Shown: positions 36,906 to 50,216 of the stretch, one piece after another
How the letters are laid out: each line of letters starts with the position of its first letter
Position numbering within the stretch: position 1 is the first letter of the stretch
Assembly: GCA_900230115.1 (NCBI GenBank)
Contig: LT907983.1
Location: 3,611,001-3,675,000, forward strand
Source: Spirosomataceae bacterium TFI 002
Lineage (GTDB): Bacteria > Bacteroidota > Bacteroidia > Cytophagales > Spirosomataceae
Direction: 5' to 3'
Length of the DNA: 64,000 nt
Notes under the pieces: model-generated
What the model saw: only the letters and a program-made list of their open reading frames with translations
Databases searched by the model: none
What the model was told of the DNA's origin: nothing
Made by a program: the position numbers and the translations under genes

Positions 36906-37595
36906 TCAATGCAGCACATCTGCCAATACAGCAATGGATTTTATGTTTTTGAATTCTTCTAAGTGTAGTTGGTAGAAGTTTAGGAAAATGTCTAACAGGT
37001 GTGATCTGAAATTGTTATTCATCACCAATGGATCTTCCCAGTTGCTTTTTATTAGCTTATCTAGATATTCAACTGTATTGGACTCAATAGGTAGATTTAT
37101 TCCGGCTTCGTAAAATTGGTTTTTTATTTCCTTTGCACTTTGTGGAGCAAAACCAAGATAAGCCGATAGCTTCATTAGGAACTTTAAATGAAAGTTTTCC
37201 ACTTCGTTTTCCAGCGTATCAAAAGTTAAAATAGCCTGATATAGGAAGAAAAATAGCTCCTCATTATCTATCGACTCTTTGAGAGTCTTGCTCAAGATTT
37301 CATTGATAAAAATACCAATTGTTGTTTTTTTTATCTCAAATGGAATATGCTGAAGTGCATTGGGACATTTGATCTCCGAAATACGGTGGAGGTCTTTTTT
37401 TTCATTATGGTAAACAACTAACTCCAGCAATGTGAGTGGCTGAAAAAGAGCAATTTTATTCTTGCCTCTTGCAGAACGCACCCCATTTTCGATATACCCT
37501 TGGATGCCAAATTTTTCGGTATAGATTTTTACCACGATCGAGGTTTCTCGATAAGGCACATAACTCAATACGATTCCCTTGGTTTTGTGTAACAT
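36906..37595 (-). CDS. recO: DNA repair protein RecO
   Basis: 229 residues. The N-terminal OB-fold begins MLHKTKGIVLSYVPYRETS and continues TEKFGIQGYIENGVRSARGK and FQPLTLLELVVYH; the C-terminal helical domain is shorter and lacks the zinc-binding cysteines found in some RecO proteins. RecO works with RecR to load RecA at gaps. The ATG at 37595 is in a stretch that is about 80% identical, over 50 bases, to the end of cox3 at 45331-45380: the upstream side still encodes 15 codons resembling the COX3 C-terminus. This suggests that recO once overlapped the 3' end of cox3. Confidence 0.93.
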   Translation of the reverse strand: MLHKTKGIVLSYVPYRETSIVVKIYTEKFGIQGYIENGVRSARGKNKIALFQPLTLLELVVYHNEKKDLHRISEIKCPNALQHIPFEIKKTTIGIFINEILSKTLKESIDNEELFFFLYQAILTFDTLENEVENFHLKFLMKLSAYLGFAPQSAKEIKNQFYEAGINLPIESNTVEYLDKLIKSNWEDPLVMNNNFRSHLLDIFLNFYQLHLEEFKNIKSIAVLADVLH

Positions 37596-37626
37596 GGTAC
37601 AGCAAAAATAGCAAAATCAGAAACCA
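37582..37626 (-). pseudogene. Vestige of the COX3 C-terminus immediately upstream of and overlapping recO
   Basis: Read on the minus strand in the cox3-equivalent frame, 15 codons give WFLILLFLLYHVTQN, against WLLIFLFLLYHATQN at the end of the intact COX3 encoded at 45329-45922 (12 of 15 identical). The stop codon is changed to CAA and the frame runs into recO. It is part of the 60-nt direct repeat 37571-37630 / 45321-45380 (46 of 60 identical, ungapped). Confidence 0.7.
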
Positions 37627-37837
37627 ATGTGCATTTAAATTGTGCCTATATGTTTGACTTTTACTAAAAACTAAAGCATCTAAAATTGAGGATTTTTGAA
37701 ATTAATAACGATTCAAAAAAATAATTCGATTTAGTCACTAAGCGTTATAAGGGAAAATTCGACGAATAGCTTTTCTAGGTAAAAGGAACACTATTTTTTC
37801 TATTACCCCATTAAAATCTAGATAGCTGAATTTGTCA

Positions 37838-39712
37838 TTATTTTATAAACAATATTCTTTCAGTTTGAATGCCACTTTGGTTTTCAACTTCCAAATAATA
37901 GGTACCAATAGGATATGCACTCAAGTCAACATTTTCACTATTGGTTTTTGGTACAATAGTTTTAATGAGTTGACCGAGACTATTCCGTACTCTAATAGTG
38001 TTCGTATTTGAAGTAGGGGAATTTAACATATTTATGAGTATTGAATTTTTTACAGGATTGGGTCCGTAGGAGAATATTCCTGAATCTGTTACAGATTTCT
38101 TTCTTCCTGCATCTGCTTTGAATCTATTTAGGTGAAGACGAATATTCTTAGTCGTACTATTGCCGCTAGGATCGGTCAGTGTTAGCTGAATATTCTTTAA
38201 AATAGTATCTGCAAGCATAAACTCGGTTTGAGAAAACTCAGAACTAACTATGGAACAATTATCGTAACCTAAAGAGCCAAGTGAGTCTAGGATGATTTCA
38301 GCTTTTCCACTAGAATTAAGAGTAAGAACAATGGAATCCAAAGTAATAGTAGGCTTAATTGTATCTAAAACAGTAATAGTTACCTGTCCTATTTGGGTGT
38401 TGCCTGCATTGTCACTGGCATACACATTTGTAGATTGATCTTTGGCACTGTTGCAATTAAATGATTGATTATCTAATACAGTAATACTCGAAATTCCCGA
38501 AGGGTCATTTACCAAGTTTTCAATCATCGAAGAGCTAAATTTACCTTCCCCTTTTTCGTCGAGATAGATAGAAACAGAACCTGAGATATTTGGAGGTAAG
38601 TTGTCAACAATATTTACCATTAAAGCTTTGGCAGATACATTTCCATGGTTGTCTATTGCTATTATTTCAAGAATTCCGGACGACATTTCTGTTGTTAAAA
38701 TTTCTTGATTTGCTGTAATCTGTTTTATTCCACATGGATCAAAAGCCAGCGGAGCTAACAGCTCTTGGGTCAGTACTACCTGCCCTTGAGCATTTGCAAA
38801 GAATGTTACTGGTTCGTCAATGATGTATGGTTCTATTTTGTCGAAAACTCGAATGCTGACGGCTTTTGAACTTTTATTTCCATAAGTATCCATTGCAGTT
38901 AATATAACCTGCTGGTCGCCTACATCATTACAAGAAAACAAGGTTCTGTCGAGAGATAAATTATAATAACCAGTATTGTCGCTAGTACCATAGTCCAAAT
39001 CTCTAGGATCTAGCTCACCATATCCATCACTGTTTAGGAATACATCAGCAGTTCTTGTTCTCACTATAGGTCCTGTTCTGTCGGCTACGGTTAGTCTTGA
39101 ATAACAAGATGAAGACAACATTTGAACGGTGTTACTTTCAGTAACTGTTAACTGTACATAATACTCGCCTACACTAAATGGGCCGTAATTATCAAGCGTA
39201 AGGTTCAGAGGATTATTGTCTGGGTCAAAGGAGCCATTGTTTGCATCTTCTACCGCCACCATAACTGTTTCAGAATTACCTAGTTCCTTATTGATGTCCT
39301 TACATTTAGCCGTTGGCGGTCTATTTGGGTTTATAAGCGTAATATTAAAATTGGAAGAAGAATTGAAGCTGTCAATGAAGGGCGGTGTAAAAGGAGTGGG
39401 TGGTATAGTAACTCTAATAACCTCAACCACTCTTATTTCATATGCACTTCCAAAATTCAAGTTGTTAATCGTGAATGACCTAGAACTTGCACTAATATTA
39501 TCAATTACTGTAGCAGGCATGCCTACAACATTATAAGAAATTTGAAATCGGTTTAAACTTACTCCAGGGGAAATCGTAACATCGGTTTCTCCCCATGCGA
39601 CCATTACTGAGTTAGATGTTCCTACTTGTGTAACACTCGATATTGGCGTAGTAGCTAAAGTTTCCAATACTGCTAAAAGTAGCAAGCTTAAAATTGTGTG
39701 TATTTTTTTCAT
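37838..39712 (-). CDS. Secreted multidomain adhesin-like protein with T9SS type A sorting domain
   Basis: 624 residues. A signal peptide (about 1-21) is followed by a fibronectin type III domain (about 22-120), then several HYR-like beta repeats beginning near DRTGPIV, DKIEPYI, DNLPPNI and DTIKPTI, each with conserved acidic and Cys residues. The last roughly 80 residues are a type A T9SS sorting domain: SYGPNPVKNSILINM, IRVRNSLGQLIKTIV, LSAYPIGTYYLEVE. The protein should be exported by Sec, then by T9SS, and attached to or released from the surface. It lies 32 bases after the large subtilase-like gene and is probably co-transcribed with it. Function unknown; adhesion or matrix binding is an inference. 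Confidence 0.85.
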   Translation of the reverse strand: MKKIHTILSLLLLAVLETLATTPISSVTQVGTSNSVMVAWGETDVTISPGVSLNRFQISYNVVGMPATVIDNISASSRSFTINNLNFGSAYEIRVVEVIRVTIPPTPFTPPFIDSFNSSSNFNITLINPNRPPTAKCKDINKELGNSETVMVAVEDANNGSFDPDNNPLNLTLDNYGPFSVGEYYVQLTVTESNTVQMLSSSCYSRLTVADRTGPIVRTRTADVFLNSDGYGELDPRDLDYGTSDNTGYYNLSLDRTLFSCNDVGDQQVILTAMDTYGNKSSKAVSIRVFDKIEPYIIDEPVTFFANAQGQVVLTQELLAPLAFDPCGIKQITANQEILTTEMSSGILEIIAIDNHGNVSAKALMVNIVDNLPPNISGSVSIYLDEKGEGKFSSSMIENLVNDPSGISSITVLDNQSFNCNSAKDQSTNVYASDNAGNTQIGQVTITVLDTIKPTITLDSIVLTLNSSGKAEIILDSLGSLGYDNCSIVSSEFSQTEFMLADTILKNIQLTLTDPSGNSTTKNIRLHLNRFKADAGRKKSVTDSGIFSYGPNPVKNSILINMLNSPTSNTNTIRVRNSLGQLIKTIVPKTNSENVDLSAYPIGTYYLEVENQSGIQTERILFIK

Positions 39713-39744
39713 AACTAAATAAGTTTTGATGTTTTCAAATCCAT

Positions 39745-42700
39745 TTATTTCACTATTTCTAAAGGAATGTTGCTGTTCTCGGTCTGAAGTGCTGCTGAAG
39801 AATTGCAGGCACTTTGAATTTTTGCAGAGAAAACTGAACCTGTTTTAGCTTCAAATCCAGGTTTTAATTCAATTGCATTTCCAGCCATGAAATTGACATT
39901 AGCGGGTGAATTAATCTTATTAAGAGCCACTATGTAACTCACAGCCTGCTGAGTCATATTGGAATTGATAGGTGAAACATTCACAATGGTTATTGCCTCG
40001 CCAGAAATTTGTACCGTGAGGATTGCGGGATCGCTATACCTAGTGCATCCTGATTGCGAAAGTTTACACCTAAATTGTTGACCATTCAGGGCAACTGATG
40101 GAAAGGTTAAATCTAAAGTAGGGCTAGTTACATTACTGAAGACCGCATCTGCAATTACGTCCACAAAGCCTGTTCCATTGTTTACTTGCCATTGATATGC
40201 AATACCAGATCCGCTGACTATGGTGCTAAAAGCAGTGTGATTTCCTTGACAAATAGTGCTTGACTCAGGTTGTGAGGTAATGATGCCTGTGAAAATAATG
40301 CCGGAAGATGTAACCTCAGTAGTAGCCGTAGCGGTACAGCCATTTGCAGCCGTAACGGTAACCGTATAAGTTCCGGGATTAGAAATGGTTGCCAAAGCAT
40401 TATTTCCAAGACCATTTGACCATGAGTATGAAGAACCTCCCGTTGCAGTTCTCGTGACAGAGGTATTGGCACAGCTAAGATTTTCGGACCCTAAAATACT
40501 CGGGGTAGGAGGGCTTATATTTCGACTTACAACAGTATTTGCTGTAGCGGAACAACCATTTGCAGCAGTAACTGTTACGGTATATGTTCCAGGGTTAGAA
40601 ATGGTTGCCATAGCATTATTTCCAAGGCCATTTGACCAAGAATAAGAAATACCACCTGATGCAGTTCGAGTGACAGAAGTAGAAACACAATTAAGATTTT
40701 CTGTGCCTGCGATATTTGGCGTTGGTGGACTGATATTTTGCGTTACTTCAGTTGTAGCCGATGCAGTACAACTATTTGCAGTAGTAATTGTAACTGTATA
40801 AGTTCCAGGGGTATTAATGGTGGCAGTAGGGTTGTTGCCCAATCCATTTGACCAAGAATAAGAAATACCTCCCGAAGCTATTCTCGTGACTGACAATAAA
40901 GAACAAGTTAAGTTGTCATCTCCCGAAATACTAGCTGTGCATGCTGGCACATTTACAATAACTTCTGTTGTGGCAGTAGCCGTGCATGTACCACTAGAGG
41001 TAATGGTAACGGTATAAATTCCAGCCATTGCTAGTGTTGCGGATGGTATTGTTGGGTTTTGAGCATTTGAGGTAAAGCTATTTGGCCCAGTCCACATTTG
41101 ACTTGTTCCTCCCGTGGATGACGAGCTTAAGTTAATTGCTGCTCCTACATTAACGGGTGAATTGCTACTTGCCATTGAACTCGTGGGCGGAGAACAAGGG
41201 GTATTTACAATTACACTGGTCGTAGCAGTAGCCGTGCATGTGCCGCTAGAGGTAATAGTAACAGTATAAATTCCAGCCATTGCTAGCGTTGCGGATGGTA
41301 TTGTTGGGTTTTGAGCATTTGAAGTAAAGCTATTTGGTCCAGTCCACATTTGACTTGTTCCACCTGTGGATGACGAGCTTAAGTTAATTGCTGCTCCTAC
41401 ATTTACGGGTGAATTGCTACTTGCCATTGCGTTTGTTGGAGGAGAACAGGCTACCGTATTTATCACTACATTAGTTGTAGCAGTAGCTGTGCATGATCCA
41501 TTCATAGAAGCTACACTCACGGTATAAACTCCTGCCATGCCCAAGTTTGCCGAAGCTATATTGGGGTTTTGAGAACCTGATATGAAAGCATTCGGTCCAG
41601 CCCATGAATAAGTATTTCCTCCTATTGCAGTAGCGGTTAAGTTTATAGTTCCACCCACATTAACTGGTGAGTTACTTCCTGCGGTGACCGAAGTTATTGA
41701 AATAGTTGCTAGTGATGAATTTGCCGATGCACAAGATCCATTCTTTATAACTGCACGGTATTTTGTGGTTTGTGGAATGTTGGCATAATTAAGTGTAGTG
41801 GTGGTATTAGAAATAGGAATTGATGTAAGAAAATTATCAGTTGAAGATTCCCAGCGTAATATGGTACCCGCATGTCCACTTAATGTTAAGGTACCTGAAT
41901 TTGAACTACTACAAAAAGTAGCGTCGGAACTTACGCTTCCACCTACAGAGCCTATGGTGAAAGTAGTGGCTGTACGGCAATCAGGAAAGAGTTGGTTTTC
42001 AACATAAAAGTTAGTTGAGCCTATTGTTGAGGTATTAGGAATACCTGAACCTGCTAGACCAACAGGGTTAAAAACTTCTCCTGTAAATATAGATGAGCCA
42101 CCAGTAGGGACTGTATACCAATTATTAGTTCCATTTGGAAAACCAGCCGAAGAGGCTTGTAATGTGTATGTACCAACAGCCCCAGCTGAAAATGTACTAA
42201 CTACCAAAACATAATTTTGACCAGCTGTTAATGTATGGGTGAGACTAGAAAGTAAACTTACTCCGCCATCATCATCGCCCCTCAAAAAATTAGTAGCCGG
42301 AGAGGCAGGATTAAAAGGGGATTGGTATAATGTTAAATATGAATCATTAGTAATTCCTGGGCTAAGGGATGCCTCTGTTATTGTAAAAGTTACATCGCCA
42401 GAGGCGGGTGCGATAAAGGTATTAGTTGAATAATATCTCGGACCAGATGGATTGTAAGTTGTCGTATTATTTCCTTGCCCTCTTACATATGTAGGTCCAC
42501 TAACGATAGAGCCATCAACACTATTTGTATTTGAAATGGGAACTTTTAAACCTTCACCACTGGGTACAGCTGCATTTTGACAGACGCTATAAGATGCAAC
42601 TGTAGGTATAATTTTGAGGTTTACAACAACTGGTATTGAAACTGATGTCAAAGTACAGGATAGTCTAGTGATGTCCACTGTAAAGTTTCCTGAAGTTTTG

Positions 42701-44691
42701 GCAGTGTATTGAGCATTAGTGGCACCACTAATTGCTACTCCATCTTTTTTCCATTGAAATGTAAAGTTGGTACCTGTATTAGCATTCAAAATTACCGAAT
42801 CACCTTCACAGAAAGTTGTAGAGCCTGTTATTGTGACCACAATTGGTGGACAATCAGGGTTTGTAACTGCCATGACTGCCAAGTCTGCTCTTATTAGCCC
42901 TGCACCTGTACGATAGTCAAATCCTATGTCGAACCCTGGTGTATTTGGGTCATCCATATCTACACAAGAATTGATTAATTCAGTTCGTACAGTGTTTTGA
43001 GTTATTGAGGGGTTTGCTTCATACATCAATGCAGCTACTCCAGCTGCATGGGGAGCTGCTGCTGAAGTTCCACTAAAATTGGGTATTCCATCTGGCTCAT
43101 AGTCATAGCCAGGAATAAAGAAAGACGTATTTGCATTGTCAGGAGCAGTGAACTCTGGTTTCATTCTATCCACGGGACTTGCAAGCCTAACACCCGAAGG
43201 AGAGAACATAATGAGTGTACCGCCTCTGGAGGAATATGATTCTATTTCTGGTATTGGAACACCAAATGCTGGAGTTTTGTCATAGCTCGCTGCACCGCAA
43301 GCTATAGCACCCGCCGCATTAGAGTGTCCAACGCAGGTCCCTGCCCTTATTCCTGCTATTGTAGGAGGGGTAAGTGTCCAGGTAAGTCCTCGATGTCCCA
43401 CTACTTTTAACCTTGTGGGGTCGGGGCCGGATTTCTTAGTAATTAGAATATATTTGTTGGCCAAATTGATGTTTGCAAAGCCAAAGGTTTCAATAGGGTC
43501 ACTGCCAATATTGTTCGTTATAGATTGGCTTACAACCGTATACTCCATAGTAGTACTATTATAACTACAGATATAAATGTTTAAATCAGAAGCTGATCCT
43601 GGAGAACCATTTCCAGCAGAAATATAAGGTTCGTCCCATTGAAAAGTTATAGGTCTGGTTGACCCGTTGACAGGTAAATAATAAATGGGATTTGCTGCTG
43701 TACCAAAGTTATGTGCTGTTTGCCCATCGCCAAATGGTTGGAATGTAGAGGCCTGGTAAGGGGCTTCGTAAGATTGATCACTGGAATTGGCTGCTGATGA
43801 AAAGTAACTTGCACCTTTTACATTTACTGCGTAATCAACCGCTTGAGCAATAATTCCATCTTGGAAATATGGTTCGGCAAAATATCCAACATCATCAACA
43901 ATTACTTTACAACCTGCGTCAGCTAAAGCACGAATACCATCGGCAAATCCGGCTTGTCCATTGAAAGCGGTGTAATAGTACAATTGTGCTCCAGGAGCAA
44001 CATCATGAATGATTTCTAGCATGGCTCTGCCTTCATCGCTTCCTCCGTTAGTCATATCAGCCAAAACTGTTATTGGTGTAGTAAATCCATTTGGGTTGGT
44101 CGTTCCCGGTAATTCGCCTGTAGAAACACCTGCAGATGCCCCATTGAGGTTGTTGTAACTATCTGATAGTACACCAACTTTAACACCAGCTCCATTGAAG
44201 CCCAAAGCACGAGCTAAGTCTGATCGCTGAGCAACATCACCCTGAGATTGAACAGGCCCTGAGTTAGTTTGCGGTTTTATTGAACTCCGCATTGTAACTA
44301 TGCTAGGAGCCTTGTTTAGATAATTAGGGATTTGTTTTATCTCCACCCAGCAAGTAATGAAGTTTTGATGCCTAGCAACTATTTCAACTTGCAGGCTTTT
44401 AAGTTCTTCATAAAGTGCATTTCCATCCCCTTGTGACAGTATATCTACTTTAATTTTTGTGTTATTGTCTTTTAGCGAGATGTAGCTATAATTTGGGACA
44501 TTAACACTGTTTATAATTTGATTGGTACTAGAAAGTGTTACGATTTCCGATAATCCAAACTGAAGTTTTGGGTTTTCATTTGAGACAAGATTATTAATAG
44601 CTCGTTGAGCTTGAGCAAATGAAATGAAAAAGCTCAAGAAAATTATAAGCGTTATTTTAAAGTACAATGCGGAGGTAAAGTGTTTTTTCAT
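39745..44691 (-). CDS. Giant S8-like serine peptidase with Ig-like repeats and a 3-coathanger-type C-terminus
   Basis: 1648 residues. After a signal peptide (about 1-28) comes a subtilase-type domain: the Asp motif VGVLSDSYNN (D177), and the Ser motif GTSAAAPHAAG (S543). The canonical HGT histidine is absent; the equivalent stretch is DEGRAMLEIIHDVAPGA, so E220 may replace it, as in Ser-Glu-Asp sedolisins. From about residue 660 onward come PKD/Ig-like repeats: two 84-residue repeats nearly identical in DNA and three 72-residue repeats (GLGNN core). The C-terminus (NAIELKPGFEAKTGSVFSAKI) is of the 3-coathanger type, not a classical T9SS sorting domain. Probably a secreted surface protease. 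Confidence 0.85.
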   Translation of the reverse strand: MKKHFTSALYFKITLIIFLSFFISFAQAQRAINNLVSNENPKLQFGLSEIVTLSSTNQIINSVNVPNYSYISLKDNNTKIKVDILSQGDGNALYEELKSLQVEIVARHQNFITCWVEIKQIPNYLNKAPSIVTMRSSIKPQTNSGPVQSQGDVAQRSDLARALGFNGAGVKVGVLSDSYNNLNGASAGVSTGELPGTTNPNGFTTPITVLADMTNGGSDEGRAMLEIIHDVAPGAQLYYYTAFNGQAGFADGIRALADAGCKVIVDDVGYFAEPYFQDGIIAQAVDYAVNVKGASYFSSAANSSDQSYEAPYQASTFQPFGDGQTAHNFGTAANPIYYLPVNGSTRPITFQWDEPYISAGNGSPGSASDLNIYICSYNSTTMEYTVVSQSITNNIGSDPIETFGFANINLANKYILITKKSGPDPTRLKVVGHRGLTWTLTPPTIAGIRAGTCVGHSNAAGAIACGAASYDKTPAFGVPIPEIESYSSRGGTLIMFSPSGVRLASPVDRMKPEFTAPDNANTSFFIPGYDYEPDGIPNFSGTSAAAPHAAGVAALMYEANPSITQNTVRTELINSCVDMDDPNTPGFDIGFDYRTGAGLIRADLAVMAVTNPDCPPIVVTITGSTTFCEGDSVILNANTGTNFTFQWKKDGVAISGATNAQYTAKTSGNFTVDITRLSCTLTSVSIPVVVNLKIIPTVASYSVCQNAAVPSGEGLKVPISNTNSVDGSIVSGPTYVRGQGNNTTTYNPSGPRYYSTNTFIAPASGDVTFTITEASLSPGITNDSYLTLYQSPFNPASPATNFLRGDDDGGVSLLSSLTHTLTAGQNYVLVVSTFSAGAVGTYTLQASSAGFPNGTNNWYTVPTGGSSIFTGEVFNPVGLAGSGIPNTSTIGSTNFYVENQLFPDCRTATTFTIGSVGGSVSSDATFCSSSNSGTLTLSGHAGTILRWESSTDNFLTSIPISNTTTTLNYANIPQTTKYRAVIKNGSCASANSSLATISITSVTAGSNSPVNVGGTINLTATAIGGNTYSWAGPNAFISGSQNPNIASANLGMAGVYTVSVASMNGSCTATATTNVVINTVACSPPTNAMASSNSPVNVGAAINLSSSSTGGTSQMWTGPNSFTSNAQNPTIPSATLAMAGIYTVTITSSGTCTATATTSVIVNTPCSPPTSSMASSNSPVNVGAAINLSSSSTGGTSQMWTGPNSFTSNAQNPTIPSATLAMAGIYTVTITSSGTCTATATTEVIVNVPACTASISGDDNLTCSLLSVTRIASGGISYSWSNGLGNNPTATINTPGTYTVTITTANSCTASATTEVTQNISPPTPNIAGTENLNCVSTSVTRTASGGISYSWSNGLGNNAMATISNPGTYTVTVTAANGCSATANTVVSRNISPPTPSILGSENLSCANTSVTRTATGGSSYSWSNGLGNNALATISNPGTYTVTVTAANGCTATATTEVTSSGIIFTGIITSQPESSTICQGNHTAFSTIVSGSGIAYQWQVNNGTGFVDVIADAVFSNVTSPTLDLTFPSVALNGQQFRCKLSQSGCTRYSDPAILTVQISGEAITIVNVSPINSNMTQQAVSYIVALNKINSPANVNFMAGNAIELKPGFEAKTGSVFSAKIQSACNSSAALQTENSNIPLEIVK
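40319..40930 (-). repeat. Three tandem 72-codon Ig-like repeats inside the S8-like gene
   Basis: Period 216 bases, three copies, each containing SYSWSNGLGNN and PGTYTVT. Divergence between copies is moderate. Confidence 0.75.
40973..41429 (-). repeat. Two tandem near-identical 252-base repeats in the S8-like gene
   Basis: The 205-base cores 40973-41177 and 41225-41429 differ at about 10 positions (95% identity), and all differences are silent: the encoded segment from SSNSPVNVGAA to CTATATT is identical in both. A third, older copy lies at about 41470-41690. Confidence 0.85.
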
Positions 44692-45328
44692 GGGATTCTA
44701 TTTAAGGAATTCAAAGGGTAGATTCTTAAATTGTAAAGTTGTTTATGGCTTATTGTGGTGCGTTGTTTGCAAAAAAAGATATTTGTCTACTTAATCGGCT
44801 TTATGCTTTTGAAGAATTATTGAATCTCAATGCGTTTAATTGATAATACCGATTTTAAATGCAGTAAGAATCTTGATCTAAATATTAATCTTAAACAACT
44901 AGGCGAGTTGGCCGCTCAAATAGTGTTAGGTTAAAAAACGGTAGTGGAGCTGTGTGAGTCAGTTGTGGTTTGAAAACAATTGAACCATCATGGGAGTGGT
45001 GAGAGTAGTGTTTTTTCATGGAGCTATTTGGAGTATTTATTCTGAATCAAATTTCAAGAATAATCCTTTTACTCACAATACAGGAAAACATGTATATTTC
45101 ATTTATAAATCTACTAGAAAACCTTTATTAAGAGTGGGTTAATAGATCGAGATAGTAGATTTTGAAATATTACAATTTGTCTTAAAATGTAATAATTTAT
45201 CTGAATTTCTCTTATGGACACATTGGCTTTCCAATCTTACTTTTCAAGGAAGTTTAAAGCGTGATGCCTCTAACTGAATAAGATAAGATGTACTGGTTTT
45301 CAATTATTAGTAGATGAACAAAATACCT
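44692..45328. other. Gene-poor gap inside the putative cox3-recO insertion
   Basis: No convincing gene, promoter or terminator is seen. One point of interest: CCATGAAAAAACACT at the start of the S8-like gene recurs at 45021-45007 on the minus strand, opening a 42-codon frame that resembles nothing I recognise; it may be a remnant of an older start region. The recO-like vestige (45307-45345) lies at the right edge. Confidence 0.5.
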
Positions 45329-45345
45329 TTAGTTTTGCGTAGCAT
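45307..45345 (-). pseudogene. Vestige of the RecO N-terminus overlapping the cox3 stop
   Basis: In the frame overlapping the cox3 stop the minus strand reads MLRKTKGILFIY then a stop; intact RecO starts MLHKTKGIVLSY (8 of 12 identical). This fragment and the region before recO form a direct repeat flanking 7.7 kb. Confidence 0.65.
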
Positions 45346-45922
45346 GGTAAAGCAAAAACAAGAAAATAAGCAACCAAAGTATGTCAAGGAAATGCCAATA
45401 AATAGAGATAAGCTTGATTTTTAGTTGATTTGGCGGATTTACACTGAAGACATAAGAGTCTACATATGAGGTTTTTCTTAAAGCCTCATGTACCAAAAAT
45501 GTAAGAGCAATAACACCGCCTAGCGTGTGAAATATATGTAGGCCAGATAAAATGTAAGTAAAAGAACCTCCTGTACTATTAGCTAAGGTTATTCCACTTG
45601 CCAATAAGGTTGACCAGCCCAAGAGTTGAAGTAATAAAAATAATAGACCAAGGAAATAGCTTGCGGCAATCATCCAGCGGAACTCAGGGAATTTTTCAAT
45701 GCTTAAATATTCCTTGGCTTTCATCAGTGTGAAGCTACTAAGCAAAATTGCAATTGAGCTGAACCAAAAGGATAGAGGGATTTTAATCGGAATTTCATTT
45801 TGTCCCAATTCTTTTCGAACAAAAACAAAAATTATAAATGCGAAAAGTATTACTGAACCCAAAATGCCCAAATAGAGCATAAAGGATAGTGGTTCGCGTC
45901 TTCTGGTAAGTGAGTTAGACAT
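45329..45922 (-). CDS. Cytochrome c oxidase subunit 3 family protein
   Basis: 197 residues, typical of the five-helix COX3/heme-copper oxidase subunit III form. Hydrophobic segments occupy about 13-34, 47-66, 83-108, 120-143 and 173-196. Conserved segments are GWSTLLASG, LSGLHIFHTLGGVIAL (His ligands of family members) and the C-terminal ISIYWHFLDILWLLIF. It is part of a terminal oxidase complex in the inner membrane, but the other subunits are not here. The stop is inside sequence homologous to the RecO start. The gene downstream of a LytTR gene has no recognisable promoter of its own. Confidence 0.9.
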   Translation of the reverse strand: MSNSLTRRREPLSFMLYLGILGSVILFAFIIFVFVRKELGQNEIPIKIPLSFWFSSIAILLSSFTLMKAKEYLSIEKFPEFRWMIAASYFLGLLFLLLQLLGWSTLLASGITLANSTGGSFTYILSGLHIFHTLGGVIALTFLVHEALRKTSYVDSYVFSVNPPNQLKIKLISIYWHFLDILWLLIFLFLLYHATQN

Positions 45923-46073
45923 TTTAGAGTGGACTACTTAAAACTCAAAGCCCGGTTGTTGAAAATTGTTCTCTTTTATTTTAAAACAATGTTACAACGA
46001 ACTGATCGATAAATCGTTTAGCAGTTTTCTCTTTTTTAATTCTTACAACCTTAATCGGAACAATTTGACTTGT

Positions 46074-46415
46074 TTAGCCTAATTGTGCTACAGTGTGTAC
46101 TTGAACCCTTAAGGGATTGTGTGGTTGCCTTCTGCGTGAAATTTTAATAAACTCCTTGGTTTCTTTGATTTTAAAAGATTCCGAATTGGGCATGTAGGTA
46201 GCGTATTGTAGGTTAAGTAACACTTTACGACTTGCTCTGAAAAGCGAGTTTGGTTGCGTACTACAGCGAACCTGTATTTTTTTAAGTGTTGTAGCTACAA
46301 GAAGTTTTTCACCGCTCGTAAAGTGAGCCATAGTGTAATTATCATGTGCTTCAAAAAACTTAATCTCTGCAAGGAAAACACTCCTTCTTGCACCTATCGG
46401 AATCTTTTTTTTCAT
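46074..46415 (-). CDS. Stand-alone LytTR DNA-binding protein
   Basis: 113 residues, made up of little more than a LytTR domain: FLAEIKFFEAHDNYTMAHFT, KIQVRCSTQPNSLFRASRKV and LLNLQYATYMP are the domain's strands. No receiver, sensor or membrane part is present, so it should bind DNA constitutively or be controlled by levels or an unknown partner. It lies 182 bases from a LytTR response regulator on the same strand, with a 151-base gap to cox3. Regulatory targets are unknown. The C-terminal extension (residues 96-113) is not from the domain. Confidence 0.8.
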   Translation of the reverse strand: MKKKIPIGARRSVFLAEIKFFEAHDNYTMAHFTSGEKLLVATTLKKIQVRCSTQPNSLFRASRKVLLNLQYATYMPNSESFKIKETKEFIKISRRRQPHNPLRVQVHTVAQLG

Positions 46416-46596
46416 GGCTATGGATTTTAATCAAGTCCCTGACTACTTAATCAGAAATGTTACTCAATTTACCATATGCATGCTTTTGAAAGACAAAAAT
46501 GTTCTGAATGGGTTGTTTTTTGATATGTATAACCCAATGATTGTTCTGAGTGAAAAGCTCATCTCGAACATCATCCGTAATTGGGCTAATAGGATG

Positions 46597-47307
46597 TTAG
46601 CTTAGTTTTATTTTTTGCAGTATTTCATCTCGATAGCTTTTGCTAAGCGGTATTGTGTGCTCATTCAAGATAATGTGGTCGCTATTGATGGCAGAAACAT
46701 GGTCGAAGTTGACCGCATAGCTACGGTGCACTCTTTGAATCATGGTGGAGTTAATAAGTTCGAGAAGCTGACTGAGGGAGTTTCTTACCACATACTTTGT
46801 GTTTACGAGGTAAATATTCACATATACATGGGAGCTTTCTAGGTAAATAATGTCGGCAACTCTTATTCTTACAAAAAAGTTATTGTCCTTTACAAATATG
46901 GATTCTTTTGCAAGGCTCCCTTTTTGGCTTATTAACTGTTTGTTGAAATTTGAAAAACATATTTCAATGGTTGCATATAGCTCATCCTTGTCAAAAGGCT
47001 TTACGAGGAATGCGGGAGGCTCAGTTTCTTTCACCCGCTCAATGGTTGCTTTGTCGGAATTTGCTGTAAGAAATATGAAAGGAATATTGTATTGAGTTTT
47101 TAGTATCCAAGCGAGGTCTACGCCGTCTTTTTCTCCTTTGATATTGATATCAAGCAAAACAAGATCAGGTTTGAAGTTTTCAAACATTTCTAAACCTTCG
47201 CGAAAAGAAGCTACAGGTTCGTCTACTTCATATCCCATTTTTTGCAATATGAGTCTTAAGCTGTCAGCAATTATCAGTTCATCTTCTACGATGCCAACTT
47301 TAAGCAT
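46597..47307 (-). CDS. LytTR-type response regulator
   Basis: 236 residues. The receiver domain has the acid pocket E8-D9, phosphoacceptor D53 (LLDINIKG), T81 and K103 (LVKPFD). The C-terminal LytTR domain spans about 130-236 (DIIYLESSHVYVNIYLVN, MIQRVHRSYAVNFDHV). It should bind promoters once phosphorylated by the kinase encoded 5 bases upstream at 47313-49244. Target genes are unknown. Confidence 0.93.
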   Translation of the reverse strand: MLKVGIVEDELIIADSLRLILQKMGYEVDEPVASFREGLEMFENFKPDLVLLDINIKGEKDGVDLAWILKTQYNIPFIFLTANSDKATIERVKETEPPAFLVKPFDKDELYATIEICFSNFNKQLISQKGSLAKESIFVKDNNFFVRIRVADIIYLESSHVYVNIYLVNTKYVVRNSLSQLLELINSTMIQRVHRSYAVNFDHVSAINSDHIILNEHTIPLSKSYRDEILQKIKLS

Positions 47308-47312
47308 AGGTT

Positions 47313-49244
47313 TTAATCTGATATTTTAAATTGAATTTCGAAAGTTGATAGCTCTTTGGATTTATGATACTTTACTCCTCCTTCCAATTGCTGAGCTAAT
47401 CGTCTCACTAGCTTTAGGCCCATGTTTTCCGTTTTGGCATCGAGACTGCCATTTGGTAAACCTGGTCCATTATCGCTATAGAACAATGTATAACTTTTAT
47501 CGGTGTTTTCAGTTATTCGGAAGGTAATTTTTCCCAAAGCAGTATTTACAAAAGCATGTTTTAGCGAGTTTGTTATGAGCTCATTACTGATAAGTCCCAT
47601 GGGTACTGCGGTATCAATATCCAATATCGCATTCTCAATTTCATTCAGGAGTATTACTTCTGAGCGTCCCTTGGATAGGGTTCCTACGATTTGACTAAAC
47701 AGCTCATCTATAAATTCTCTAAACTCTACACGGGCAATGTTTTCGGTTTGATATAATTTCTGATGAATGAGAGCAATGGACTTTACTTTGTTCTGGCTGT
47801 CGATTAAAATATTATTTGACCTTTCGTCGTCGCTGTTATGTTTCTGTAATTCAAAAAGCCCACTAATGATAGACAGATTGTTCTTTACTCTATGGTGAAT
47901 TTCTTTTAATAGGATATCTTTTTCCTTTAGTAAAGCGTCTTTTTCTAAGTTATTCGATTCTAGTAAATGGTTCAGTTTTTTCTGGTTTCTTATAAAAATG
48001 AGCGTAATTCCGAGTAATATTAATGTAGCAAGTAAACCTAGGTATAAGAATATTTGATTGTTTTTTGCATCTAGCAATTGTTGGTTTTTTTTAAGAATAT
48101 CAACTTCTAATTCGCTTTCAGCAAGTCGTTTTTCAGAGCTCTCTTTTTCAATTTTTAACGTTCTATTCATGTATTCCTGCTGGTATTCATAAGCTTGTTT
48201 ATAATCACCATTTAGGGCATAAGTTTCACCTATTTTCTGAAGCTTAATTGCAGCATTTCTCTTGTAATTAAGCTTTAGGGCAACATTGTAAGCCTTGCGA
48301 TAGTTAACGAGAGCTGCCTCGTACTCGCCGTGTCTTAAGTCATAATCCCCTAAGCTTTGAAAAAGATAGGTACCAAAAATTGTATTTTCCATTTGATACT
48401 TTGAAAGAGAATCGAGTGCTTTTGCTAGCAAATCGTGGGCTGGTTCATACTTTTCGTCCTCAATTAGATATTCTGCTTTGGATATATTTTCATATTGTTC
48501 GTAATAGGCATCTTTTGTTGCTCTGGCGTAAGTAGTTGCCAGTCTCAAATGCTTATCTCTTAGTTTTATGTCATTTTTGTAAAAAAGAGATAAAGAGGCA
48601 TGCAGCTTTGGTAGGAGGTACTTTTTCTCTGGTGAGTCTGTTTCTTTAAAACCATCCAAGCTCTTTAAAAGGTATTTCTCTATTTCTGCATGGTCATAAG
48701 TTTGGGCATACATTAGGTATAGGTATGCTTTATAAAAGCAGAATTGCGGTGATTCCAGATAAGCCGGGTTATTTTTAAAAAGGGCTGTTTCAGCCTCAGA
48801 GAAGGTTTGCAGACCTTTTTTTAAATTACCATTAAAAACTTCACCAATGGCCTGGGTAAAACTAATATTAAAAGAAAGAATGTCATCTTTACGCTTTGAA
48901 ATATCTAGTTGTTTTGATGCCTCACTCGCAAATACTGCCATCTCATCAAAGTATTGAAAACGCCACATAAGTGAGGCTGCATAACTATTGATTTCGGCTA
49001 AAATGAAGTGATCGACAGGTTGATTATGCTCAAAAAAATCAAGAGCTTCTTTAATTTGAAATTTGGCACTATCTATATTGAATTGAGGCTTTTGAGTATA
49101 ATATTCTGCCTTGCTAAGGTAGTCAGCTACAACCTCGTCCTTTTTTAATCTAGAACTCTGTCCATTTAGATTTGTAGTAAGCAACAACATTGCAATACTA
49201 ACAATGAAGCTGGTTCGATACGCAAGTGGAAACGAGAAAGTCAT
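47313..49244 (-). CDS. TPR sensor histidine kinase (HisKA_2 type)
   Basis: The frame reaches a TTG at 49271; the ATG at 49244 gives 643 residues with a signal-like N-terminus. Residues about 40-370 are helical TPR-like repeats (KAEYYTQKPQF, YKQAYEYQQEYMNR) probably outside the cytoplasm, followed by a coiled coil, a transmembrane segment (about 399-418), and the kinase core: LKEIHHRVKNNLSIISGL with H450/H451, then a HATPase domain (ISNELITNSLKHAF, YSDNGPGLPNG, GLKLVRRLAQQLEGG). It should sense a signal through TPR-type contacts and phosphorylate the regulator encoded next. The kinase class matches HWE/HisKA_2 families usual in Bacteroidota. Confidence 0.9.
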   Translation of the reverse strand: MTFSFPLAYRTSFIVSIAMLLLTTNLNGQSSRLKKDEVVADYLSKAEYYTQKPQFNIDSAKFQIKEALDFFEHNQPVDHFILAEINSYAASLMWRFQYFDEMAVFASEASKQLDISKRKDDILSFNISFTQAIGEVFNGNLKKGLQTFSEAETALFKNNPAYLESPQFCFYKAYLYLMYAQTYDHAEIEKYLLKSLDGFKETDSPEKKYLLPKLHASLSLFYKNDIKLRDKHLRLATTYARATKDAYYEQYENISKAEYLIEDEKYEPAHDLLAKALDSLSKYQMENTIFGTYLFQSLGDYDLRHGEYEAALVNYRKAYNVALKLNYKRNAAIKLQKIGETYALNGDYKQAYEYQQEYMNRTLKIEKESSEKRLAESELEVDILKKNQQLLDAKNNQIFLYLGLLATLILLGITLIFIRNQKKLNHLLESNNLEKDALLKEKDILLKEIHHRVKNNLSIISGLFELQKHNSDDERSNNILIDSQNKVKSIALIHQKLYQTENIARVEFREFIDELFSQIVGTLSKGRSEVILLNEIENAILDIDTAVPMGLISNELITNSLKHAFVNTALGKITFRITENTDKSYTLFYSDNGPGLPNGSLDAKTENMGLKLVRRLAQQLEGGVKYHKSKELSTFEIQFKISD

Positions 49245-49406
49245 ATCTTGGTTGAAAAAACTAAGATACAATGTATTAAGGAAACCATCCCAATGCCCTG
49301 CTTCTATGAAAGCTTAACTGTCCTAATTGCGATTATAAGCCGCCTAAAACTTAGGGAATGGTTTGGAGAAATGAATGGCTTGCTGAGTAAGAGACGTTTT
49401 GCTATT

Positions 49407-50216
49407 TTAAAGTGAACCTTGCCACATTGAAAGCCCTTTGAACTTGGATTCTATGTCAACTTCTTTTTCAAAAATACCGTATACAGTAGATCCACTACCT
49501 GTCATTGAGGCGTAGATTGCACCTTCATCATAAAGCTGAGATTTTAAGTCTGCAATTTTTGGGTAGCTTATCAGTAGTCTTTCCTCAAAGTCGTTTTGAA
49601 TACTGCCTTTCCACATAGAAATCGGTTGGCGAATTAAGTTTATCAAGCTCCTCTCAGGCCTGCGGGGAGTTATGCCCGCATACGCTTCTTTTGTGCCAAT
49701 GTGAATGCTGGGATTTACTAGCACTATATAATATGAACTTAGGTCAATGTCTATTTGCTCGAATTTTACACCACGATCAAATACAAATGAAGGTTTATTT
49801 ACCACAAAAAATGGGCAATCGCTGCCTAGTTGAGCTGCATATTCATGGAGCTGACTATGGTCGAGTTCACACTTAAAAACTTCATTCAAAAGTGTTAATG
49901 CGAAGGCACCATCCGCCGAACCACCACCAAGTCCTGCACCCATGGGAATTACTTTATGCAGGTGAAAATGTGGTTCTTGCTCAACTTGAAAATGAGGTTT
50001 CATAAGTTGAAATGCCTTGTAGATCAAATTGCCCTCGAGTTTACCTGGGATTTCTAAACCTGTTGTATCAAGTTTAAAGCTATCACTATGTACTACTTCC
50101 AAAGCATCTTTCCAGCCAACTGGGTAGAAAATAGACTCAATATTGTGGAATCCATCTTCTCTTTTTTCAATGATATTGAGACCAATGTTGATTTTGGCGT
50201 TGGGGAACGAGAGCAT
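49407..50216 (-). CDS. ispE: 4-diphosphocytidyl-2-C-methyl-D-erythritol kinase
   Basis: 269 residues, within the IspE range. GHMP-kinase motifs: the N-terminal SFPNAKINIGLNIIEKREDG and the ATP-binding loop IPMGAGLGGGSADGAF; a later segment is YASMTGSGSTVYGIFE. The enzyme phosphorylates a cytidyl diphosphate intermediate of the non-mevalonate isoprenoid pathway. ATG at 50216 starts the family motif directly. It is divergent from rpsJ, which has a strong promoter in the intervening 150 bases. Confidence 0.96.
   Translation of the reverse strand: MLSFPNAKINIGLNIIEKREDGFHNIESIFYPVGWKDALEVVHSDSFKLDTTGLEIPGKLEGNLIYKAFQLMKPHFQVEQEPHFHLHKVIPMGAGLGGGSADGAFALTLLNEVFKCELDHSQLHEYAAQLGSDCPFFVVNKPSFVFDRGVKFEQIDIDLSSYYIVLVNPSIHIGTKEAYAGITPRRPERSLINLIRQPISMWKGSIQNDFEERLLISYPKIADLKSQLYDEGAIYASMTGSGSTVYGIFEKEVDIESKFKGLSMWQGSL

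Follow-up and report, generated by a model that had tools for sequence, protein, structure and literature searches.

Doubling of a cox3/recO overlap as a probable result of gene insertion in Spirosomataceae bacterium TFI 002

Transposons usually generate target-site duplications of a few to about a dozen bases at the point of their insertion. In the case of prophage e14 in icd, a new end completes the gene, and the old end stays on the far side of the inserted DNA. The locus described here lies in a 64,000-nt stretch of the genome of Spirosomataceae bacterium TFI 002 (contig LT907983.1, positions 3,611,001 to 3,675,000), referred to as the window in the following, and shares features with both systems. 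As in a transposon target-site duplication, a direct repeat flanks inserted DNA, and as with e14 in icd, the inserted DNA has a copy of one gene end on either side. It differs from the former in that its repeat exceeds the usual length by far and a transposase was not seen, and from the latter in that no integrase was seen and the doubled stretch also covers the start of a second gene, recO.

Genes that share bases might seem to be locked together; this locus shows how such a pair may be opened by copying the shared bases, one copy for each gene. Loss of overlap is already known, and the arrangement in the window belongs to a general type of gene-order evolution that has been recognised before. 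In its main text, a study of overlapped genes in Salmonella counts overlapping pairs that became separated (PMC3843671), and according to the main text of another, published studies of overlaps had addressed how overlaps arise and not their loss (PMC4161906). As far as these main texts go, both treat the fate of pairs and changes of start and stop, and the word "duplication" does not occur in either of them (PMC3843671, PMC4161906). The present locus resembles the overlap loss described there for bacteria in that an ancestral overlap was lost and the genes were separated, but differs from it in that both copies of the overlap remain visible (compare the main texts of PMC3843671 and PMC4161906). 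Within the literature searched, as far as its accessible text extends, no description was found of a doubled overlap around inserted genes. The locus is a well-documented case of an overlap that was opened with both genes retained.

Table 1. Features of the cox3/recO locus and its upstream neighbourhood (window coordinates)
Feature	Position	Strand	Basis
recO, 229 aa	36906..37595	-	Pfam RecO_N 7.6e-19, RecO_C 2.8e-15
recO-side repeat copy (recO start and cox3-end relic)	37571..37630	-	46/60 to 45321-45380
Relic of the cox3 3' end, outside any intact cox3	37596..37650	-	nhmmer E 0.0015
Block gene 2, secreted-type, fn3 and Por_Secre_tail, 624 aa	37838..39712	-	Pfam
Block gene 1, subtilase-like secreted-type, PKD repeats, 1648 aa	39745..44691	-	Peptidase_S8 1e-15, PKD 6.1e-13
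cox3-side repeat copy (cox3 end and putative recO-start relic)	45321..45380	-	46/60 to 37571-37630
Putative recO-start relic, roughly 24 nt, of which 17 nt fall within cox3	45322..45345	-	Joint-profile match ends at 45322
cox3, intact copy, 197 aa	45329..45922	-	Pfam COX3 3.5e-5, profile positions 114-256 of 258
Second insertion (three genes) separating ispE from cox3	46074..49271	-	Pfam; ispE and cox3 adjacent in relatives
Short LytTR gene	46074-46415	-	Pfam
Response regulator with LytTR	46597-47307	-	Pfam
Histidine kinase	47313-49271	-	Pfam
ispE-like GHMP kinase	49407..50216	-	GHMP_kinases_N and _C; adjoins cox3 in relatives

In the window, the distance between cox3 and recO has opened to 7.7 kb (Table 1). 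Neither gene contains an internal stop, both are open and complete, and cox3 has the length and the alignment of its counterparts in relatives; judged by their reading frames, both genes appear to have stayed intact after their separation. Outside the two secreted-protein genes of the intervening block, no open frame of at least 60 aa exists between 37658 and 45328, and neither of the two genes matches an integrase, recombinase or transposase in Pfam. Eleven inverted-repeat pairs occur in 37000-46500, none of them at the block ends; the pair nearest to these (37945-37968 with 45476-45499, 24 nt, 75%) has one arm within block gene 2 and the other within cox3. A transposon with target-site duplication finds no support, since there is no transposase and there are no terminal inverted repeats at the ends of the block.

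Searches with RecO and the window cox3 across 222 genomes of the family gave a recO match in 214 and a cox3 match in 215. Among the matches listed, relatives without the two secreted-protein genes at this site have recO starting within the end of cox3 in all 22 genomes with a recO match from groups g9 (10 genomes), g16 (1), g18 (1) and g23 (10), these being the groups in which the overlap was seen (G107 of g9, with neither match, was omitted). The overlap measures 11 nt in 17 of these 22 genomes and 32 nt in five, again among the matches listed. Two of them, G142 and G147, have a cox3 that is only 30-32% identical yet runs into recO, and the main comparison covers the other 20. The gene overlapping recO in these two genomes is a strongly diverged cox3 (L149:7765-8325 and L150:8043-8693), which in G142 does not match any Pfam family at E 0.001. 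The arrangement in the relatives supports an overlap of cox3 and recO as the probable ancestral state. The first-pass annotation had proposed such an origin with an overlap of 17 nt; the overlap itself is confirmed, but 17 nt is the value of the window lineage, the relatives having 11 or 32 nt.

Directly upstream of cox3, an ispE gene is found in 13 of the 22 overlap genomes (those of g9, G125, G127 and G146), and it is absent from the locus in the remaining g23 genomes. At eight loci examined in g30 and g26, ispE adjoins cox3 and recO is absent from the locus, which suggests that ispE and cox3 form the older pair and that recO joined later.

In the window, cox3 is also parted from ispE, a feature that the first-pass annotation did not mention. 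The insertion comprises three genes (span 45923-49406) and separates a pair that is adjacent in many relatives, the GHMP kinase at 49407..50216 being presumably ispE. A search for repeats across 45700-49700 found none linking the end of ispE to the start of cox3, and alignments of the gaps yielded nothing either.

The two 60-nt copies at the block ends align within the window as an ungapped direct repeat with 46 of 60 positions identical, and 40 of 50 in the core (bins -30 to +20), in agreement with the figures first given for this locus. Translated from the minus strand in the frame of cox3, the recO-side copy gives HWFLILLFLLYHVTQNQG, where cox3 itself has LWLLIFLFLLYHATQN followed by the stop; in the frame of recO, the cox3-side copy gives MLRKTKGIL, where recO itself has MLHKTKGIV. 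The earlier reading of these copies, as encoding the COX3 C-terminus before recO and the RecO start at the end of cox3, was thus correct on both sides. Neither copy has the stop that terminates cox3 where the overlap is 11 nt; both continue as the relatives with the longer overlap do. For comparison with other pairs of sequences, the best ungapped 60-mer match was determined at every separation from 300 to 39,999 nt within the 64-kb window. Three separations score at least 42, and the repeat pair, with 46, ranks second among them; the first (48) and the third (43) are both internal to the secreted gene 39745-44691. A seeded repeat search requiring 9 exact bases did not pick up the pair, since the longest exact run that it contains is 8.

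The extent of the doubled stretch was assessed with profiles that were built from 20 relatives and excluded the window. A joint profile of the cox3 and recO junction gives two significant matches in the window, 45916-45322 and 37650-37477, the latter including recO. On the cox3 side the match stops at 45322, 24 nt into recO, and on the recO side it begins at 37650, 55 nt before recO. With a profile of cox3 only (nhmmer), one further significant match is found in the window, directly before recO at 37650-37596, the next match having an E of 0.56. The overlap is present at both block ends, although the match to a profile of the recO start alone (45345-45313, E 0.21) is fourth in the window and by itself not significant. 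From +25 to +60, the cox3 side shows no similarity to recO. Longer recO remains on this side were rejected, since 106 to 230 of 300 shuffles matched the local alignments; this held whether or not the first 25 nt were included, and the recO genes of G125, G132 and G101 were used for comparison as well. The recO-start remnant of the first-pass annotation is retained, with its edge moved to about +24.

On the recO side, similarity to cox3 fades with distance. In 36-nt windows placed in 18-nt steps upstream of recO, the mean identity to cox3, averaged over the genes of the 20 relatives and of the window, is 24.0, 21.9, 17.1 and 10.6, the fourth value not being above that of shuffles (11.2). For the segment from -72 to -37, none of 300 shuffles reaches the value obtained against the cox3 of relatives in register (P 0.05 with shifts allowed). 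Against the window's own cox3, the relic beyond the 60-mer gives 13/35 (P 0.11), and in an anchored extension 11 of 200 shuffles reach the score, so that the relic does not stand out. Further upstream a shift of 30 nt fits better (-90 to -54, P 0.005; -108 to -72, P 0.07; -126 to -90, P 0.41; -129 to -55 overall, P 0.025), and a free local alignment with the window cox3 arrives at the same 30-nt offset, with 3 of 300 shuffles reaching the score. By the profile matches, the cox3 relic is shown to 55 nt upstream of the recO start, and its possible continuation to about 37724 is suggestive. With a relic reaching at least this far, the duplicated stretch is longer than the 60 nt originally assigned to it, even though the repeat as such was rightly recognised.

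The Bacteroidota-type promoter motif consists of TTG, a spacer of 15-23 nt and TAnnTTTG. A motif search found it neither before recO, nor before the first secreted gene, nor before cox3; a lone TAnnTTTG is located at -15 of recO, within the relic.

We propose that the ancestor would have had the order ispE, cox3, recO, with the start of recO within the last codons of cox3. In the lineage of the window, a stretch comprising the end of cox3 (at least 55 nt) together with roughly the initial 24 nt of recO would have been doubled, and DNA with the two secreted-protein genes would have ended up between the doubled stretches. The upstream copy would complete cox3 and hold a dead recO start, and the downstream copy would start recO and hold a dead cox3 end. 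We consider this account as a whole, from the ancestral overlap to the retention of both genes, to be likely. Duplication and insertion were presumably one event in the window lineage, and the overlap would have survived twice because selection required both genes to be intact. Similarity rises towards the recO start, which suggests that the terminal part of the relic was retained as the start region of recO, and the relic is presumably best kept next to recO because it serves in this function. A relic of one gene may thus be retained as the start region of the next. An insertion that leaves both overlapping genes whole must copy the overlap, so that a scar is to be expected in any survivor, and for this reason the scar does not identify the enzyme. 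The block bears no trace of its route of entry, and neither an integrase nor a transposase was seen in it. The earlier claim that a block was inserted with duplication of the overlap, both genes remaining intact, is borne out in outline by the relatives and the relics; that it was inserted in one step is what we infer. Of the two observations that the first-pass annotation named as refuting its account, neither was made: cox3 does adjoin recO in relatives lacking the block, and the 60-nt match is better than nearly all other pairs compared in the window.

Both genes of the block belong to families with further members in the same genome. The partner (block gene 2) has three paralogs, 40-41% identical to it, and each of these directly follows a gene that shares the C-terminal region of the subtilase-like protein. 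Such a cassette of a giant PKD-type protein and its partner is found at 37838-44691 in the window, and three more are located elsewhere in the genome (see loci L145-L148). Block gene 1 looks like a mosaic, since its front part (residues 16-648) is closest in the genome to a separate paralog (G000:C1:4885876-4887789, 63%); it looks as if a subtilase-type front had been fused to the back end of a cassette. Within this gene, repeats of roughly 216 and 250 nt occur at 40317-41448, one pair being 91% identical, suggesting recent internal expansion.

Several other explanations of the two copies were weighed against the proposed doubling. Chance or shared composition, the match being an accident of AT-rich sequence that codes for a hydrophobic segment, is hardly credible: the match does fall in a T-rich membrane segment, and tests on the flanks only give modest results, but its second rank among the separations compared in the window argues against an accident, as does a profile match located exactly at the recO start, in the register and the orientation of the relatives with overlapping genes. 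A site-specific element could have brought a replacement cox3 end and left the old end before recO. The geometry, with a displaced gene end at the far side, and the largely synonymous differences between the two ends would fit, but a block without open frames of at least 60 aa besides the secreted-protein genes, neither of which resembles an integrase or recombinase, makes such an element very improbable. An integrative element carrying a replacement gene end finds no support for the same reason, no integrase or recombinase gene being found in the insert. A tandem duplication followed by loss deserves more attention, even if we regard it as rather unlikely. Here, the secreted-protein genes would originally have been located between the LytTR gene and cox3; a segment from these genes through cox3 into the start of recO would have been duplicated, and the secreted pair of the first unit and the cox3 of the second would have been lost, leaving LytTR, cox3, the secreted pair, the cox3 relic and recO. 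This accounts for the abrupt end of the recO part at about 24 nt together with the fading edge on the cox3 side, and for the position of cox3 between the LytTR gene and a secreted-protein gene. The genome contains 56 LytTR matches, 40 of which are counted as short stand-alone genes. One of these is in the window; of the other 39, 15 are followed immediately by a secreted-like gene of the same strand, compared to 44 of 250 other genes at the same loci (Fisher P 0.004, with secreted-like genes called by a crude signal-peptide rule); this is possibly a recurring unit of regulator and surface protein. One paralogous cassette (L146) also runs in the order LytTR, giant protein, partner. Among the remains that lost copies would leave beyond the overlap, a longer cox3 relic has partial support. 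Nevertheless, tandem duplication demands more steps, and the 151-nt gap between LytTR and cox3, aligned against both secreted-protein genes and both other gaps, holds no remains of a secreted-protein gene (72 to 152 of 200 shuffles reach the score). Moreover, no LytTR gene is found beside the subtilase relatives in L148, L151 (a contig that ends about 450 nt before the subtilase relative) and L152, or before the giant gene in L147.

Acquisition of one end from a related bacterium by recombination, with the block or after it, would mean that the two copies already differed when they met. The identity between the copies (46/60) lies between the means of relatives from different genera (41.5, 117 pairs) and from the same genus (47.9, 73 pairs), which lends loose support to the first-pass view that the event is old. 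Among relatives, the best match is G149 for the recO-side copy (48/60) and G150 for the cox3-side copy (50/60), both values being above that between the copies. Since the copies are not mutual best matches, the event is undated, and their divergence does not provide a clock because both are partly under selection; 60 nt under selection are a poor clock and a poor tree. This kinship may be compatible with an old event or with recombination with a related bacterium. Recombination would also agree with the best matches of the two genes, which differ: the intact cox3 is most identical to that of a g9 genome (61%), and recO to those of g16 and g21 (65-67%). In the cox3 tree, however, the window gene groups with g21, g16 and g23 and not with g9 (support about 48-49), and sixty bases under selection decide little, so that we consider acquisition of one end improbable. 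Given this weakly supported grouping no transfer is shown, and a foreign origin of cox3, also tried, finds no support in the tree. A search of the genus returned the window genome only and thus no second species, hence no intermediate stage was seen; a scan of named genomes, in which records very close to the window may be missing, yielded nine loci, the best of them 56% identical in RecO.

The proposed doubling would provide a simple signature, searchable in related genomes, of past insertions. Doubled overlaps could be used to polarise gene order and to gauge how frequently overlaps are opened by duplication. Whether the doubling of overlaps is the regular route by which overlapping pairs part without loss of a gene, so that doubled overlaps would record insertions into bacterial operons, is a generalisation that we put forward tentatively and rather doubt.

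Other changes at the same junction are apparent in the sister groups. In a tree of ValS and RecO, the window genome groups with g21, g4 and g16 (support 100, with 39-51 for the branching among them). The g16 genome G125 retains the overlap of cox3 and recO, but the three genomes of g21 and the one of g4 do not, the pair being split or cox3 missing. In G131 and G132 (g21), some 3.7 kb separate cox3 from recO and contain two oppositely oriented genes, which in G132 encode a barrel protein of the outer membrane and a Porph_ging protein. No cox3 relic is visible before recO in either genome. In G132, the end of cox3 retains CATGCTTC and recO retains ATGCTTCATAAAACC, so that at least 7 nt of the overlap would also be doubled there, unless this stretch was re-created by chance; in G131, the end of cox3 is altered and has no such stretch in common with recO. 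The third g21 genome, G130, has the same two kinds of genes as G132, but cox3 is missing from its place. The split in g21 was probably an event separate from that in the window lineage. In G047 (g4), cox3 is gone and ispE runs straight into recO, which by its gene order seems to have swapped one overlapping upstream partner for another. These arrangements thus show that the junction was altered in several ways, the start of recO being kept each time. In G047, ispE overlaps recO by a single base (TAATG, L064:7996-9497).
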